Both the position numbers and the translations under genes were made by a program. Shown piece by piece: positions 1 to 5,546 of a stretch of 5,546 nucleotides of DNA. Numbering within the stretch: position 1 is the first letter of the stretch; every line of letters begins with the position of its first letter. This DNA comes from Chloroflexota bacterium. GTDB taxonomy: Bacteria > Chloroflexota > Limnocylindria > Limnocylindrales > CSP1-4. The stretch is taken from the NCBI GenBank assembly GCA_021785115.1, contig JAJYGO010000031.1, positions 1 through 5,546 of the forward strand, in the 5' to 3' direction. The notes below the pieces were generated by a model. That model was not told where the DNA came from. It ran no database searches and saw nothing but the letters and a program-made list of their open reading frames with translations.

Positions 1-123
1 GAACCGGATCGTTCCCTGCGCCCGCGCGATCGCGACGCTCCCCTCCTCGAGCGGCTGTCGCAGCGCCTCGAGGACGTCGCGGTCGAACTCGGCAAGCTCG
101 TCCAGAAACAGGACGCCGCAGTG
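1..123 (-). pseudogene. comM: comM/yifB 3' portion, cut off by element insertion (continues past the left edge)
   Basis: Reading the minus strand from 120 to 1 gives [20 protein letters not shown] followed by [20 protein letters not shown]. This is the Walker B segment (LFLDE) and downstream part of the AAA+ domain of ComM/YifB, the Mg-chelatase-like helicase that in transformable bacteria helps branch migration of incoming DNA (family knowledge). The frame continues off the left edge. Upstream the homology stops abruptly at about 120: the expected PGE.SL.H residues are replaced by unrelated codons, and the frame runs back to the TGA at 208-210 without any ATG, GTG or TTG. This half therefore has no start of its own. 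The missing 5' half lies at 5431-5546. Very sure of the family; the gene is disrupted only while the element is integrated. Confidence 0.9.
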
Positions 124-153
124 GGGGAGGATCGCGGAATGTATCTCGGAGGC
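98..153. other. attL: left attachment junction
   Basis: The comM half-site lies to the left (up to 121), the proposed crossover dinucleotide is TG at 122-123, and the element half-site lies to the right. The element arm has AATGTA at 138-143, exactly 14 bases after TG, which is the inverse complement of TACATT at 5427-5432 in attR. The left and right junctions share GCA(G/A)TG. Two-base non-palindromic cores are the rule for large serine integrases. Assigning TG, rather than GC or CA within the shared block, rests on the arm symmetry. Confidence 0.75.
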
Positions 154-207
154 GGCCCTGCTATGCGGAACGAGCCTTGCGCGTGCGCTTGCGCCCCCCG
201 GTGGGAG

Positions 208-558
208 TCAGGGCTTGAACTCGGTTGGGAAGGCGAGATAGAGGAGCGGCGCCATGTCGAGGATGGTCGCTACCTGTCCGGCCGGAGCAGCGCACATGTC
301 GGACATGTCGAGCGCAAAGGCCCCGATCATCTGATCGCTTGGCAGGCTGCCATCTCCATCGTGCTTCCGGAGCGTCACCAGGAGATCGCCCGCGGCCACG
401 AATCGCTGCTGATTGCTCATGCTGTCGCGCCAGTCATTGCACGTCGTGACCCTGTAGTCGCGGGGCCACGTCTGGACATACTTGGTCGAAGTGGGCGCGC
501 CACTGCACGCCCCGATCAGGAGCACTGTCGCTAGCGTCGCCCCCGTGAACCGTCGCAT
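208..558 (-). CDS. Small two-cysteine lipoprotein (cargo)
   Basis: This is a 116-residue secreted lipoprotein. It has a short basic start (MRRF), a hydrophobic stretch and a lipobox LIGAC with the lipidated Cys at residue 18, followed by a Ser/Thr-rich spacer. The mature domain has two cysteines (C40 in TTCNDW and C89 in SDMCAAP), which could form a disulfide around a mostly helical core. The pattern C-x-D-W, MS..QR, LL..LR, then C, recalls small HdeA-like or actinobacterial-type lipoproteins, but I cannot name the family. Start ATG 556-558 is preceded by GGGAGG at 4-5 bases. It lies 51 bases behind the DUF3761-like lipoprotein, so the two probably share a transcript. Its TGA (208-210) is followed in the same frame by the headless comM 3' half. 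Confidence 0.82.
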   Translation of the reverse strand: MRRFTGATLATVLLIGACSGAPTSTKYVQTWPRDYRVTTCNDWRDSMSNQQRFVAAGDLLVTLRKHDGDGSLPSDQMIGAFALDMSDMCAAPAGQVATILDMAPLLYLAFPTEFKP

Positions 559-609
559 GTTCCTCCCTTCCGGAACGCTCGTGAGTCCGCGCCACAGGGG
601 GCAGGGTTG

Positions 610-1062
610 TCAGTGCCCACCCGGCCCGGCTGGACCGAGGTTGCCCGTCCACCAGTGGACTCCCCCATGGCGGCTACACGTACCGGAGCGATGCTGGCTG
701 TACGACCATGTCCTGTCCGCACAAACGGCAGTTGCTCCTGCTGCTGTGGCCGCGGCGTATGGGTCGTTCGCGGTAGGGATGGGCTTGAGAGTGGGGGCCG
801 GCGTTGGCTGAGGTGTGGGACGCGGGGTGGGCCTTGCGGTGGGGCTGGGGGTCCGTTTGATGGCGGGCTTCGGCGTGAGGGCCGGGGTAACTACGGGCGG
901 CAGGGGCGCGACGGTGGTGGCGGGCAGACCCGAAGGGACGACCGGCGCCGTGCTCGTCGGTGCTGGGTTCCCCTGCGTCTGCATGTGCGAACCCGGCGCG
1001 GCGGCTGTCGAGCAGGCGGCCACGGTAACGGAGAGCAGTAGGACCGCAAGTACGCGTCGCAT
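610..1062 (-). CDS. DUF3761-like lipoprotein with Pro/Thr-rich stalk (cargo)
   Basis: This is a 150-residue predicted lipoprotein. The signal peptide is MRRVLAVLLLSVTV followed by lipobox VAAC (Cys 17). Residues about 35-95 are a low-complexity linker rich in Pro, Thr and Ala with TPRPTPQPTPAP-type repeats, typical of a cell-wall-spanning stalk. The C-terminus (about 109-137) has ATAVCADRTWSYSQHRSGTC followed by SRHGGVHWW. This matches my memory of the DUF3761 signature (AxCxDGTxSxSxxxxGTCSxHGGVxxW) with two conserved Cys; its function is unknown. The ATG at 1060-1062 was chosen over the longer frame reaching 1203 because GGGAGG sits 4 bases before it and the signal peptide begins there. It is probably the first gene of a two-lipoprotein transcript from a promoter near 1105-1132. 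Confidence 0.85.
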   Translation of the reverse strand: MRRVLAVLLLSVTVAACSTAAAPGSHMQTQGNPAPTSTAPVVPSGLPATTVAPLPPVVTPALTPKPAIKRTPSPTARPTPRPTPQPTPAPTLKPIPTANDPYAAATAAGATAVCADRTWSYSQHRSGTCSRHGGVHWWTGNLGPAGPGGH

Positions 1063-1104
1063 TGGACCTCCCTCATGGGACGCGCTAACGAACCAGACAG
1101 AGCC

Positions 1105-1132
1105 AGTGTACGAACGGGGCAAGAGCGTGCAA
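1105..1132 (-). promoter_or_regulatory. Candidate sigma-70-type promoter for the lipoprotein pair
   Basis: On the minus strand, TTGCAC (1132-1127) and TACACT (1110-1105) are separated by 16 bases. The -10 matches 4 of 6 consensus bases and the -35 has the TTG core. Transcription would start near 1098, giving a leader of about 36 bases before the ATG at 1062, with the SD GGGAGG in it. The placement fits well but the match is modest. The rest of the 1063-1272 gap shows no gene or clear terminator. Confidence 0.4.
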
Positions 1133-1272
1133 GTCGCCGTGGGTACTACGCGGCGGCAGGCTTCCTGCGGGGGCGAGACTGACATTTCCCGACACGCCCC
1201 CACGGAGGGCTACAAGGTCGCAGGCGGGACGTTCGCGGAGCTGCGTGCGAGAACTCTCCTCCCTCGGATCGA

Positions 1273-2502
1273 TCAGCGACGCCGGCGGCCGGAGCGACCA
1301 CGTGTGCGGGACGCGACCGCATCGCGTCGCTCCCGCAGGATCGACTGCTCGTAGGCTCCGCCGACGGTGACAATGGGCCTCTGGCCTATGCCCACATACT
1401 CGCGCACATCCACGGTGACCTGTGCGACCAGTCTCGGGCGAATGATGCCGCCTTGGTTGACCTGTTCTTCGAAGACCTGAACACCGAGTACGCGCGGGTC
1501 ACGCCCGATGGTCGCCAATACCTCGTGAGCGACGTCCGTGTGATGCGCCCATGCGATCAGATAGACGCGGGGGTAGGCACGCGCGATCTTGTGCTTGACT
1601 GCGTCGATGTACGCGGCGGTCCCCCTGGCGGAGAGGACGTCCGAGGTCGCCGTTAGAACCAGTCCGCAGTGAATCCACGTGCCATCGAAATCGGTGTGCT
1701 CGTACTGCTGTATCGCAACGCAGTACAGATGATCGACGAAGGCGGCGGTCTCGCTGGCAACGGCGTCCGTGGGGAGATCGTTGATTAGGCGTGCGCCCAG
1801 CCGGGAGAACTCCTCCAGCAGCACTGGTCCGAAGAGTCGATCCTGTTCGAGGTAGTCGAGCTTCGCCGTGAGCTGTCTAAGCCGATCCTCGCTCTTGATT
1901 TCGGGCTGCCAAGTGCCAGTTATGAACTCGTTGACGGCGCGCGCGTCTCGCTTGCTGAGAAGCGACTTCGCAACCGTGAAATCGATTCCACGTGATACGT
2001 CCGGGTCGAGGTGGCGGCGCGCAAGGGGCAGCACACCGTGTCGCGCGTAGGCCCATGCTGCGGCGACCAGATTGCGAGTCCGGTCGGCGTGCGGGGCGAT
2101 GCCGATTACGAGCGTGCCGTCAGGGAGCTGTTGAGCTTCTTCGGCCGATCGGACGAAGTTGATCCGGACGCGCCCAATGGCGGCAGTCGGACAGGCGCGA
2201 ACGAGCTCGTTGACGCCAGCCGAGACCGTACCTTCGATGTCCTGCCTGATCGACTCGCGCTCAACGCTCTGGTTCGTCCAAGCGAGGTACGCGAGGAAGC
2301 GGCCCGCGAGCTGCTTCACTTCGTTCGGATACTTCGACACGAGAAAGACAGCCGCGGCACCGGGCAACGCGACGAGGCCGCCTAGCTGGCCGAGGGGCGG
2401 GAACAGCCAGTAGAGAGACGCTAGGACAACGACAACAACGACAGCCGTGATGGCCGCGCGCCTAGGCGAGCCTATCAGGGCCGTCGAGATCCGCGTCGCC
2501 AT
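1273..2502 (-). CDS. Membrane-anchored protein of unrecognised family, two N-terminal helices (cargo)
   Basis: This is a 409-residue protein. Two hydrophobic helices (about 16-34, with a run of valines, and about 38-55) are joined by a very short PPLGQ turn, so a hairpin in the membrane is likely, with both the N-terminus and the long C-terminal part (about 57-409) in the cytoplasm. The soluble part is mixed alpha/beta with motifs such as RINFVRSAEEAQQLPDGTLV, YLIAWAHH and a basic tail RTRGRSGRRRR. No Walker A, HUH or protease motif is visible, so it is not a Zot-type ATPase. ATG 2500-2502 has GGAG 7 bases before it. The start lies inside the 3' end of the zinc-ribbon gene (41-base overlap), which suggests translational coupling. 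Base composition is lower in GC than the integrase. I do not recognise the family; a defence or membrane-effector role is only a guess. Confidence 0.85.
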   Translation of the reverse strand: MATRISTALIGSPRRAAITAVVVVVVLASLYWLFPPLGQLGGLVALPGAAAVFLVSKYPNEVKQLAGRFLAYLAWTNQSVERESIRQDIEGTVSAGVNELVRACPTAAIGRVRINFVRSAEEAQQLPDGTLVIGIAPHADRTRNLVAAAWAYARHGVLPLARRHLDPDVSRGIDFTVAKSLLSKRDARAVNEFITGTWQPEIKSEDRLRQLTAKLDYLEQDRLFGPVLLEEFSRLGARLINDLPTDAVASETAAFVDHLYCVAIQQYEHTDFDGTWIHCGLVLTATSDVLSARGTAAYIDAVKHKIARAYPRVYLIAWAHHTDVAHEVLATIGRDPRVLGVQVFEEQVNQGGIIRPRLVAQVTVDVREYVGIGQRPIVTVGGAYEQSILRERRDAVASRTRGRSGRRRR

Positions 2503-2686
2503 TCTTCTGCTCCAGCAGACAACGGAAGCAGATAGGCCTTAGTTCGCCGGCGTGTTTCACGAACGCCGCGGGGAGGCCTTCGCACTGTCGCTGACAAAGG
2601 GCGCAGTGCCATTTGTCAGGGAGGGGTTCGCCAAGGACAGCGGCCAAATCTGCCTGATGGATCGCCGGTAGCTTGCGCTCCGCCAC
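2462..2686 (-). CDS. Small zinc-ribbon protein (cargo)
   Basis: This is a protein of about 74 residues with two CxxC pairs: C28-A-L-C31 (in WHCALCQRQC) and C53-F-R-C56 (in RPICFRCLLEQ). The spacing suits one zinc ion held by a treble-clef or ribbon fold; an extra Cys is at 35. It could bind nucleic acid or be a scaffold for its partner; the sequence does not say which. The start is taken as GTG 2684-2686, because CGGAG lies about 8 bases before it. A GTG three codons earlier (2693-2695) abuts the same SD with no spacer. The stop (2462-2464) lies inside the two-helix membrane protein gene, so the two form a tight, probably co-translated pair. A small basic recombination directionality factor is another possibility, but nothing specific supports it. 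Confidence 0.7.
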   Translation of the reverse strand: MAERKLPAIHQADLAAVLGEPLPDKWHCALCQRQCEGLPAAFVKHAGELRPICFRCLLEQKNGDADLDGPDRLA

Positions 2687-2794
2687 CGTGTGCACTCCGA
2701 GATGCCGCTACGCGCAGGCTCCAGGCCAATACGCCACGAGCCCAAGGACGAGCCGGCTGACCGTCATGATAGGAGGTTCCAAACCACAGGTATT

Positions 2795-2818
2795 GGCCGG
2801 TACGACGTGTCGCCGGCC
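2795..2818. repeat. Near-perfect 24-bp palindrome
   Basis: GGCCGG (2795-2800) pairs with CCGGCC (2813-2818). Inside, CGAC (2803-2806) pairs with GTCG (2809-2812), leaving only a TA bulge and a two-base tip. It could be a hairpin in single-stranded DNA or RNA, or a dimer-binding operator. Confidence 0.6.
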
Positions 2819-2826
2819 CATCACTG

Positions 2827-2879
2827 CCGTCAAGGGCCGCCGCACGCGGGCGCCGCAGGCGCGGACCCTTGACGGGTCC
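2827..2879. repeat. Overlapping stem-loops that exclude each other
   Basis: CCGTCAAGGG (2827-2836) is a perfect 10-bp inverted repeat with CCCTTGACGG (2866-2875). The loop between contains its own hairpin, GCGCC-GCA-GGCGC (2850-2862). The right arm also takes part in another perfect stem, GGACCC (2863-2868) with GGGTCC (2874-2879) around a TTGAC loop. The two outer stems cannot form together, a pattern seen in attenuators and in rolling-circle nick-site cruciforms. Confidence 0.6.
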
Positions 2880-2900
2880 CGATGCCGAGGATGGAGGCGT

Positions 2901-2918
2901 CCGGGCCGAATGGCCCGG
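2901..2918. repeat. Perfect 7-bp stem-loop
   Basis: CCGGGCC (2901-2907) and GGCCCGG (2912-2918) flank a GAAT tetraloop. The stem is strong, but no T-tract follows on either strand, so a factor-independent terminator is doubtful. It fits better as part of the palindrome cluster. Confidence 0.55.
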
Positions 2919-2931
2919 GTTACTTGATCAG

Positions 2932-2952
2932 AACGGCCGTTCACCTGAGGTG
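2932..2952. repeat. Two adjacent palindromes
   Basis: AACGGCCGTT (2932-2941) is a perfect 10-bp palindrome. It is followed immediately by CACCT-G-AGGTG (2942-2952), a palindrome with 5-bp arms. They could be operator-like or origin-associated sites. Confidence 0.45.
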
Positions 2953-3079
2953 GCCGGTGAGCCGAGGCTATGGATGCCCGCCGTCACCAAGCGGGTGCAC
3001 ACACCCACACCACAGCCCGCGACCCACAGCGCAGCACCGTCACCACCGCCCCGACCGCACGGCCCCGCCGATGAGGTAC

Positions 3080-3085
3080 GGGGAG
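3080..3085 (+). promoter_or_regulatory. Shine-Dalgarno that decides the Rep start
   Basis: GGGGAG lies 6 bases before TTG 3092-3094, which is in frame with Rep. The alternatives fit less well: ATG 3071 has no SD, and ATG 2882 would add about 70 residues of non-coding-like sequence. Confidence 0.5.
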
Positions 3086-3091
3086 TTTGCA

Positions 3092-3889
3092 TTGGAGGGA
3101 TGGACAACAACAGACAACCGAAGAGCTTCACTTGAATCCCCAACGAAACTCGACCGGGCGCGTCCTCCCCGGGGAGTCGAGGGCCGCTGGCGTCTGACGC
3201 TCTACCCGGAGGCCCGGGAGGCGGGCGGGTGCTTCGTGTCGGGGTCAATGCCCCGGGACGTCGGCCAGGTGCCGGAGCCGAGCGGGGATCGTGCGGCCGA
3301 CGAGGCGGCACGGCGGGCGCGGGGCAAGGTGCGCCGGTACTGCGCGGCGAACCGGCTCAACCGCCTCGGGACGCTGACGTACGGGCCGCCGTTCTGCCGA
3401 GATGCTGACGCGCTGCGGGAGGACGTCGGGACGTTCTTCCGGCACCTGAGGCGGCGCACCGGTCCCCTGCCCTATCTGTGGACTCCTGAGCTGCACTCGG
3501 ACGGCGAGCGCTACCACGTGCACTTCGCGGTCGGACGCTTCGTGCACTACGCATGGATCCGTGAGGCGTGGGGGCGCGGGCACGTCCATATCAAGCTGCT
3601 CGGGGACCTGCCCGTAGGCTCCGGGTCGCTGGGCGAAGCTCGCCTCGCGGCGCGGTACCTCTCGAAGTACATCGGCAAGGCACTCGATGCCTCGCCGTAT
3701 GCCCTGCACCGGTACGAGGTCGCGGAGGGCTACCAGCCGCAATCCGTGCGGATCGAGGCGTCGTCGCTGGGAGAGGTCTGGGCCGAGGCCGCCTATGCGA
3801 TGGCCGGCGAACCGGAGTACCGCTGGGACTCGGGGACTGACCCAGGGTGGCGTGGGCCGCATGCCGTGTGGGCGTCGTGGGCGGACTGA
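3092..3889 (+). CDS. HUH rolling-circle replication initiator-like protein (Rep)
   Basis: This is a protein of about 265 residues. Motif 1 is LGTLTY (about 92-97). The metal-binding HUH motif is YHVHFAVGR, with H-V-H at about 142-144. The catalytic-tyrosine motif is AARYLSKYIGK, with Y at about 189 and K-Y at 192-193. Such enzymes nick one strand at an origin, stay covalently attached through Tyr, and start rolling-circle replication. The surrounding text (RGKVRRYCAANRLNRLGTLT, EAWGRGHVHIKLLGDLPVGS) resembles Rep-like proteins annotated in actinobacterial and other high-GC integrated elements. No helicase domain is fused, so a host helicase would be needed. The first 30 or so residues have poor codon bias and the start is uncertain: TTG 3092 is chosen for its SD, while ATG 3071 or ATG 3248 remain possible. 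A relaxase-like transfer role is an alternative to replication. Confidence 0.85.
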   Translation: MEGWTTTDNRRASLESPTKLDRARPPRGVEGRWRLTLYPEAREAGGCFVSGSMPRDVGQVPEPSGDRAADEAARRARGKVRRYCAANRLNRLGTLTYGPPFCRDADALREDVGTFFRHLRRRTGPLPYLWTPELHSDGERYHVHFAVGRFVHYAWIREAWGRGHVHIKLLGDLPVGSGSLGEARLAARYLSKYIGKALDASPYALHRYEVAEGYQPQSVRIEASSLGEVWAEAAYAMAGEPEYRWDSGTDPGWRGPHAVWASWAD

Positions 3890-4173
3890 GCGACAAGCGG
3901 CTCCGCGAGCTGGCCCGGGAGTGGGCCGCGCGGACGTGCGCCGCGCAGGGCGTCGCGGTGGCCGTTCAGGACGGAGTGGCCGTCGCGCGGCTGGCCACGC
4001 TGCTCGGTCAGACGCGCCAGAGCGGGGCGAGGCGATCCGGGTCGAACGTGTTGCGGCCCTTGACAGCGGGGCCGACGGTGACGCGGTCGAGGACGGCGGC
4101 GACCACGGCGCGCTGGCGCGGAAGCGAGAGGGAGTCCCAGGCTTCGCGCAGCGCGGCTGCGTTGCCCAAGTAG
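3877..4173 (+). CDS. Small protein of unknown function, overlapping Rep and the integrase gene
   Basis: GTG 3877 overlaps the last 13 bases of Rep in another frame. The N-terminal 45 residues (LSDKRLRELAREWAARTCAA, then VARLATLLGQTRQSG) look like a real helical protein, with almost every third base G or C over 3890-4010 and no competing gene there. From 4008 on it runs antisense to the 3' end of the integrase gene until TAG 4171-4173, and that tail is Arg/Ser/Ala-rich and less convincing. It is probably co-translated with Rep. I do not recognise a named family; an accessory to Rep or a directionality factor for the integrase is a guess. A GTG at 3868 is another possible start. Confidence 0.5.
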   Translation: MGGLSDKRLRELAREWAARTCAAQGVAVAVQDGVAVARLATLLGQTRQSGARRSGSNVLRPLTAGPTVTRSRTAATTARWRGSERESQASRSAAALPK

Positions 4174-5420
4174 GGGGCGACGGCGGCGGTGCGGGACTGG
4201 CGCGAGAGGGCGCGCTTGGCGGCGTCCATGCGGGCCTCGATCGGCTTCCGGGCAGCGAGGTACTCGGCGAAGGTGATGAGCCGCTGCCCGTACGCGGTGG
4301 CGAGCTCCTCGAGCTGGGACTGGCTCGCGGCCAGCTCGCCAGCTGCCGCGATGCCGACCTCGCTCGGCGCGTCGGCGCCGTCGAGGGCGGCGCGCAGCTG
4401 CGGCGTGTCGATGCGGTGCAGGACCGCCTCGCGGATGAAGCGCTCCAGCGGGTCGGAAAGGATCGCGATCCCGCCGCAGCCCGGCAGCCCGGGCCCCTTC
4501 GCGCAGATGTACCGGCGTTCCCCGTCGCCTCGCGGACGGGCGATGAGGACGGAATCGCAGATGCCGCAGCGGAGGAGCCCACCGGAGAGGAGGTAGCGGC
4601 GGACGGTGCGGCGCGTGAGGCGGTCCGGATTGGCGAGGATGGCGCGGAGGCGCGCGGTTTCGTCGGGGGTGATGATGCCGGGCCAATCCGCGCGGCCGAC
4701 GATCTCGCCGTGGTAGTCGCGCTGACCGCTGATACGCCCCGAAATCAGCATGGTGCGGAGGACGGTTGTCGTCCAAGGGCGACCGGTCACGGTGGCGATG
4801 CCGCGTCTGTTCCAGTCGATCGCGACGGACCGGAGGCTGTCGCCGGCGAGGATGCGCGAGGCCGCCTCCCGGACGTGGGGCAGCTCTTCGTGATTGAGGG
4901 AGCGCCGGTCGCGGAGGTACCCGAACGGGCGCGTGCCGCCCCCCGAGACCCTCCCGAGCTGGGCCAGCTCTTCGTGCTTGCGCCGGATGCGGCGGCTCTT
5001 GTCGTCGCTCTCCTTGCGAGCCACGGCGCCGAGCATACGGGCGATAAGCTGCCCGTCGCTCGTCGTGAGGTCGATGTCGGACGAGGCGACCTGGATGGTG
5101 GGGACGCTGCGCGGCTGGCAGACCTCGATGTACTCCTCCAGTTCCTTCGGGTGGCGGTGCAGTCGGTCGAGGTGCCACACGAGCACCGCGTCGATGCACC
5201 CCTCGCGGATGTCGTCGAGCATGCGTCGATAGCCCGACCGGGGTTTGGCGGACCACGCGCTGACGTCATCGTCGACGTACTCCTCGGCGATGCGCCAGCC
5301 TTTCCGTGCCGCGAGCGCGCGGCAGTCCTGCAACTGCCGTCCGACGCCCAGCTCGTCGTGGTCTGGGTCGGAGCTGATACGGGCGTAGATGCCGACAGCG
5401 GTTGGCATTGATCCGAGCAT
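4008..5420 (-). CDS. Large serine recombinase, integrase of the element
   Basis: This is a protein of about 470 residues. The N-terminal resolvase domain (about 9-150) has YARISSD with the catalytic Ser at about 16, VWHLDRLHR, and DLTTSDGQLIARMLGAVARK. A recombinase domain follows (about 164-267; GTRPFGYLRD, GRPWTTTVLRTML). Then comes a zinc ribbon with C285-G-I-C288, C306 and C315, a coiled-coil-like stretch (about 362-412), and a C-terminal AVVAAVLDRVTVGPAVKGRN tail. This enzyme class integrates DNA by cutting attP and attB with a two-base stagger, and excises with a directionality factor. The frame is open to 5489, but beyond 5443 it reads comM DNA, so the start is ATG 5418-5420 or ATG 5406-5408; both have weak SDs. 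It lies directly beside attR and is codirectional with the interrupted comM. Confidence 0.93.
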   Translation of the reverse strand: MLGSMPTAVGIYARISSDPDHDELGVGRQLQDCRALAARKGWRIAEEYVDDDVSAWSAKPRSGYRRMLDDIREGCIDAVLVWHLDRLHRHPKELEEYIEVCQPRSVPTIQVASSDIDLTTSDGQLIARMLGAVARKESDDKSRRIRRKHEELAQLGRVSGGGTRPFGYLRDRRSLNHEELPHVREAASRILAGDSLRSVAIDWNRRGIATVTGRPWTTTVLRTMLISGRISGQRDYHGEIVGRADWPGIITPDETARLRAILANPDRLTRRTVRRYLLSGGLLRCGICDSVLIARPRGDGERRYICAKGPGLPGCGGIAILSDPLERFIREAVLHRIDTPQLRAALDGADAPSEVGIAAAGELAASQSQLEELATAYGQRLITFAEYLAARKPIEARMDAAKRALSRQSRTAAVAPYLGNAAALREAWDSLSLPRQRAVVAAVLDRVTVGPAVKGRNTFDPDRLAPLWRV

Positions 5421-5472
5421 GCTAGGTACATTAGCAGAGCCTGCAATGCGAGAGGCTCGCCTCCCCGGGTGC
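5417..5472. other. attR: right attachment junction
   Basis: The element arm is on the left, with TACATT at 5427-5432 ending exactly 14 bases before TG 5447-5448. The comM half-site is on the right (5449 onward). Joined with the attL element arm, the hypothetical attP also matches symmetrically at several inner positions (GA.CCT.C) and outer ones. The start codon of the integrase lies within this arm. Confidence 0.75.
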
Positions 5473-5546
5473 GAGGCGCGGGCCGCCACCGACGAGCGCC
5501 GCGTACGACGCGGTGTGGTGGGGTGCGCGGAACGGCCGCTGGCGGC
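5431..5546 (-). pseudogene. comM: comM/yifB 5' portion, truncated by insertion (begins past the right edge)
   Basis: The minus strand from the right edge reads [19 protein letters not shown], then [13 protein letters not shown]. This is the ComM region just before Walker B (family form [24 protein letters not shown]). After TGC 5443-5445 it enters the element, adds R-L-C and stops at TAA (5433-5431). The truncated product would lack Walker B and everything after it, so it should be inactive as an ATPase. The stop lies 10 bases before the integrase ATG at 5420, so ribosomes finishing the stump could re-start on the integrase (inference). Confidence 0.9.

Follow-up and report, generated by a model that had tools for sequence, protein, structure and literature searches.

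A small serine-integrase element inserted in comM of an uncultured Chloroflexota lineage, and comM-like half-sites beside related integrases

The stretch of DNA considered here, contig JAJYGO010000031.1 of a Chloroflexota bacterium (5,546 bp, hereafter the window), began and ended with minus-strand fragments of the gene comM, separated by an element of 5,325 bp as measured from one crossover core to the other (124-5448). The 5' part of comM, downstream of Walker A, was found at 5447-5546 and the 3' part, from Walker B onward, at 1-123; both run off the window. Adjacent to the 5' part lay the gene of a large serine integrase of 466 aa (4008-5408, minus strand), the start of which was situated 38 bp from the core of attL; this integrase is recorded on a contig of 27,099 bases. 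The integrase displayed the Pfam domains Resolvase (PF00239, E 3.7e-29) and Recombinase (PF07508, E 3.3e-8) and matched PHROG 95 (integrase, E 1.7e-93), while the zinc ribbon PF13408 (Zn_ribbon_recom) was found at E 5e-5 and 24.0 bits, below its cut-off of 25.3. The remainder of the element was composed of a rolling-circle replication initiator (Rep), a putative replication origin and cargo genes.

Joining both comM fragments yielded a peptide of 73 aa across the junction, which was searched in 126 genomes from the order to which G002 belongs. It matched 107 of them, and the best match was encountered in G076, the order of which is that of the Chloroflexota metagenome-assembled genomes with the nearest integrases. 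The intact ComM of G076 (525 aa) displayed a 100 % match to the joined peptide, and the 223 bp of comM in the window (1-123 and 5447-5546, each 100 % identical) displayed zero mismatches with the intact comM DNA of this genome (L120). By manual count, the comM match spanned the site in 105 of these 107 genomes; it did not do so in G001 or in G128, where it meets a contig end. Integrase matches were obtained in 22 of the 126 genomes and Rep matches in five; G076 was in neither set and therefore looks like a true empty site.

Only one 2-bp overlap was compatible with attL, attR and the empty site, namely CA in the comM sense (TG on the plus strand). It was located at 122-123 (attR) and 5447-5448 (attL), at the His codon preceding GVLFLDEL. 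TGC, one base on, was also common to both ends, but attL there departs from the empty site; the terminal C of the 'SLSHC' reading in attL stems from the element bases TTGC directly after CA. The element is thus precisely inserted within comM at a 2-bp core, and an intact, empty allele exists in close kin. As Walker A and Walker B come to lie on opposite sides of the insertion, integration is predicted to knock comM out outright and to leave ComM inactive.

The attR region (100-150) leads from the P arm of the element into the 3' part of comM and the attL region (5424-5473) from the 5' part of comM into the P' arm. The P arm GATACATT terminates, and the P' arm AATGTACC begins, 14 bases from the core. 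The attP deduced from the element ends of the window and of three further genomes (G001, G003 and G624, see below) displayed inverted arms with the core at their centre. The four elements together gave 25 arm matches out of 32 at 15 nt and 24 out of 32 at 14 nt, against a background mean of 9.5 (standard deviation 3.9) over 182 offsets. Taken singly, the window and G624 each displayed seven matches out of eight, G001 and G003 only five out of eight at 14 nt, with other offsets equal or better. The domain set, the 2-bp overlap shared by attB, attL and attR, and the inverted attP arms about the core place the enzyme among the large serine integrases. Viral contigs scanned with the integrase sequence alone yielded no confirmed relative.

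Interruption of comM at the same codon was encountered in G001, G003 and G624, the integrases of which were 67 %, 55 % and 42 % identical, respectively, to that of the window. G624 displayed both comM halves and an element of 6,076 bp on one contig, with the core CA terminating an 8-bp identity, while the halves in G001 and G003 were on separate contigs. Judging from the two junctions, the frame and the arms (empty alleles of the same species being absent), the cores would be AG in G001 and CA in G003 and G624; an alternative alignment, GCGA, is possible in G001 but the frame is then not restored. Only split or partial comM, and no intact copy, was found in G001, G003, G010 and G624, which may be incomplete genomes. 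Two comM halves of G008 stopped at contig ends at the same place, which suggests an insertion there too. G009 was also considered as a pair of occupied and empty alleles; the comM fragment beside its integrase differed in sequence from its intact comM, and nothing was concluded from it. Use of one codon and inverted attP arms support the insertion model, as far as sequence comparison reaches.

These results confirm the observation of an earlier note made from the letters of the window, namely that comM is split in frame by a serine-integrase element of about 5.3 kb, and support its interpretation in part. Integrase families and the G076 allele bear out the split and the core-to-core distance bears out the size; the note was also right that no residue was lost, and the alignment of the junction and the search for an intact comM in related genomes that it suggested led to the identical flanks of G076. 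It placed the insertion at a conserved site just before Walker B, where the other three genomes were indeed cut. Its expectation that the same integrase could use many hosts held in kind; core and flank vary by host, so that one enzyme need not serve all.

A set of 136 distinct related integrases was gathered, 121 of them with at least 150 bp upstream. Thirteen of the 136 directly adjoined comM sequence, at several points. Four (the window included) were found in forward orientation at the window site and two inverted (L114, L208). Five (L014, L016, L017, L018 and L069) shared a site within the N-terminal domain, L154 was located slightly before that site, and L059 after Walker B. L068 was left out of this count, its comM match lying some 500 bp from the integrase. 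A quick tree of 114 integrases requires seven changes in comM targeting, at least six of which are forced by starred branches; this count is approximate, as long branches meet in places.

In four Blastococcus and Geodermatophilus genomes (L014, L016, L017 and L018), related serine integrases interrupted comM at a shared N-terminal position, and no intact copy was found. The comM halves of L014 (Blastococcus saxobsidens) were about 10.3 kb apart, with an open reading frame in the insert that appeared terminase-like from its translation, while those of L018 were about 90 kb apart on one contig, with stops in the larger half.

A matrix was built on 38 intact comM half-sites and used to scan the upstream flank (350 bp) of 112 of the 136 integrases, which are all those for which that much sequence was available. 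Among these, 25 were at least 50 % identical to the integrase of the window, and 22 of the 25 were located outside comM. Of these 22, 14 displayed their best half-site match no more than 60 nt from the start of the integrase, where 4.1 would be expected (binomial P 4.6e-6, which treats related loci as independent). Twelve of these 14 half-sites were found at 22-26 nt; the reverse strand gave five out of 22. Scores were low or negative in three of the 14 (L152, 1.5; L217, -3.5; L221, -6.1). More distant integrases displayed a near-start best half-site in one out of ten (40-50 % identity) and six out of 70 (under 40 %), and the ten integrases in comM did so in three cases, namely those forward at the window site.

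A converse test used a matrix of 11 half-sites picked by eye outside comM, beside integrases 50-57 % identical, and is weaker than the scan of 112 integrases. With this matrix the comM site ranked first or second in 12 of 16 intact comM loci, the others ranking 3, 5, 7 and 19. In L014, where comM is split elsewhere, the window-type comM site ranked 447 of 42,716. Most simply, members of this integrase clade would recognise a half-site encoded by comM, imperfect copies of which would occur elsewhere; alternatively, the look-alike sites may be a piece of comM carried off by an earlier excision. G003 was found to hold two related integrases (L198 and L211), one in comM and the other at a look-alike site outside it.

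The Rep gene (3071-3889, plus strand; the start codon was chosen manually) encodes a protein matching PF23343 (E 5.9e-12) and PHROG 3419 (E 7.4e-17), which assigns it to the HUH-type initiators; it also contains an HVHF motif, presumably the HUH-type signature. It matched 2773 proteins at E 0.001 or better, with one relative in IMG/VR. Strong Rep matches were displayed by four of the 126 genomes, all beside an integrase, while a fifth (G039) was weak (E 2.4e-11). Upstream of rep, a hairpin GTCAAGGG...CCCTTGAC (2826-2876, plus strand) is a candidate replication origin. The same hairpin precedes rep in L186 and L188, which represent the elements of G112 and G012, and was also encountered on the G001 contig that bears the 3' half of comM (L180); only its right arm was present in L187 (G002), the contig start lying inside the hairpin. 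Folding of the hairpin DNA was moderately better than that of shuffled sequences (z -1.96; six of 200 shuffles equally good), and no Rfam match was found up to E 1.

Cargo was restricted to the minus strand. A putative lipoprotein, judged from its N-terminus (208-558, 116 aa), had no counterpart in Pfam or PHROG at E values up to 1. A second putative lipoprotein of about 150 aa (610-1062) carried DUF3761 (PF12587, E 1.7e-11 on the 197-aa reading from the first start); in G076, a match to this lipoprotein (L190, 2729-2983) was situated about 2.4 kb away from the intact comM. The largest cargo protein (1273-2502, 409 aa) displayed N-terminal hydrophobic helices and is accompanied by a small cysteine-bearing protein of 77 aa (2462-2695), a pair recurring in L237, L238 and L239. 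Thirty-six proteins of the 409-aa type were found, itself included, two of which were named as Chloroflexota or Ca. Limnocylindrales; three of the 126 genomes displayed matches, each with a small partner of the 77-aa type. Its model was good (pLDDT 88.5), but the best Foldseek match, to Alba proteins, reached E 1.3e-2 with none under 0.001, and no function is assigned from it. In L238 and L239 the homologues of this pair were situated between a ribonucleotide-reductase-like gene and restriction-modification-like genes as read from translations, which is a hint only. A defence system was also considered as cargo, and PADLOC gave no match. An inovirus or other phage was likewise discarded, as no structural or morphogenesis gene was recognised among eight open reading frames searched with Pfam and six with PHROG, and as phage and plasmid records contained no counterpart of Rep.

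Taken together, these features point to a small integrative element, and the reading that follows was given a probability of about 85 %. The element would circularise and replicate by rolling circle through Rep, and the large serine integrase would insert it at attB in comM, at the His codon before Walker B. Site choice would follow from a fit between DNA recognition by the integrase and the conserved comM half-site, which encodes PGE-x-T/S-L-A-H. Integration would part Walker A from Walker B and leave ComM inactive, and precise excision would restore comM. Loss of comM would either be tolerated or favour the element through less removal by transformation. The element has the appearance of selfish mobile DNA that puts comM out of action. 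Some observations weigh against this account. No recombination directionality (excision) factor was recognised among the open reading frames scanned. The 19th rank in the converse test was that of the intact comM site of G076 (among 23,952 positions). Among 72,556 plasmid and 50,697 phage records none matched Rep, and autonomous rolling-circle replication is suggested by the Rep family alone.

That the two fragments represent an old decayed comM duplicate or an assembly chimera seemed scarcely credible: the flanks are identical to an intact allele over 223 bp, three more genomes are cut at the same codon with symmetrical, core-centred arms, and the genomes with interrupted comM displayed split or partial copies only (with the reservation on completeness made above). 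The first two of these grounds speak against chance as well. The earlier note had also proposed a switch, in which excision on cue would restore comM. The skin element in sigK and prophage A118 in comK are serine recombinase elements of this kind, which interrupt a gene, are excised on cue and restore it precisely. The present element resembles them in interrupting a gene that can be precisely restored, but neither an excision factor nor a regulator was recognised among its scanned open reading frames. The gene yifB, of the same gene family as the comM target, is reportedly among the regulated-gene-integrity candidates of the TIGER study. The exact restoration of the frame and the existence of an intact allele are compatible with a switch; exact restoration is, however, the sole basis of the idea and is given by any site-specific integrase. 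Twelve genomes of the order were tested for the ComEC-type family PF03772 and 11 had it; as 10 of 14 control genomes had it too, it says little about competence. The comM match crosses the site in nearly all matching genomes of the order (105 of 107). Of the 25 close relatives, 22 are located outside comM; regulation of comM is therefore not essential to this integrase family. A switch was considered improbable, and this part of the earlier note was not supported.

The other alternatives concern why comM is used. It could be hit solely as a widespread and slowly changing DNA site the loss of which is cheap, a view for which the odds appeared evenly poised. It accords with the recurrent insertion beside a conserved ATPase motif and with comM-like half-sites beside integrases outside comM. 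Competence genes were reported as enriched among serine-integrase targets by Durrant et al. 2022 (PMC10083194), which speaks against it, but weakly, as the background consisted of genes of the same contigs and no conservation control appeared in the part of the paper considered. The same enrichment would favour the opposite view, that insertion in comM is selected because loss of ComM reduces the transformation that would delete the element. This view is in line with published reasoning and data on the comM islands of Acinetobacter, where comM inactivation lowers transformation and the idea is put forward that comM loss hinders removal of mobile elements (PMC11472951), and with the presence of the integrase family at several points of comM, gained or lost repeatedly on the tree. 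It remained a doubtful possibility: repeated use of a conserved gene is expected even without benefit, and most close relatives (22 of 25) are found elsewhere.

In PMC10083194, 12.4 % of the serine integrases predicted to be site-specific were reported to target homologues of magnesium chelatase or ATP-dependent protease. As comM-type genes were already reported as serine-integrase targets, the present element belongs to a known kind. Like those integrases, its own enters a comM-type gene; for this small Rep-bearing element of an uncultured lineage both codon and core are defined, whereas the part of that paper considered does not say where in the gene the insertions lie. The AbaR and AbGRI islands of Acinetobacter (PMC11472951, considered in part) also split comM in the Mg-chelatase domain, but AbaR is Tn7-like, while the present element is of the serine-integrase type and no resistance gene was recognised in it. 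For Acidithiobacillus ferrooxidans, the legend of a table of integrated elements names comM beside Tn7 (PMC10322971); this island shares the target but is Tn7-type, and no serine integrase was found there in the part considered. In the parts considered of the literature on serine integrases with comM, yifB or magnesium chelatase, no account of the present element or of the look-alike sites was found, which is not proof of absence.

The window thus provides base-exact attB, attL and attR, and a predicted attP, for a small Rep-bearing element of an uncultured Chloroflexota lineage, and integrases as distant as 42 % identity share one comM codon. The freshest result is the comM look-alike sites, which offer a testable reason for integrations outside comM and bear on the frequent breakage of comM by mobile elements. 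They also allow the bolder idea, at present unlikely, that the clade shuttles repeatedly between the half-site of comM and its look-alikes, comM loss shielding the element from removal by transformation. If this were true, the same kind of element would alternate between knocking out a helicase and landing with comM spared.

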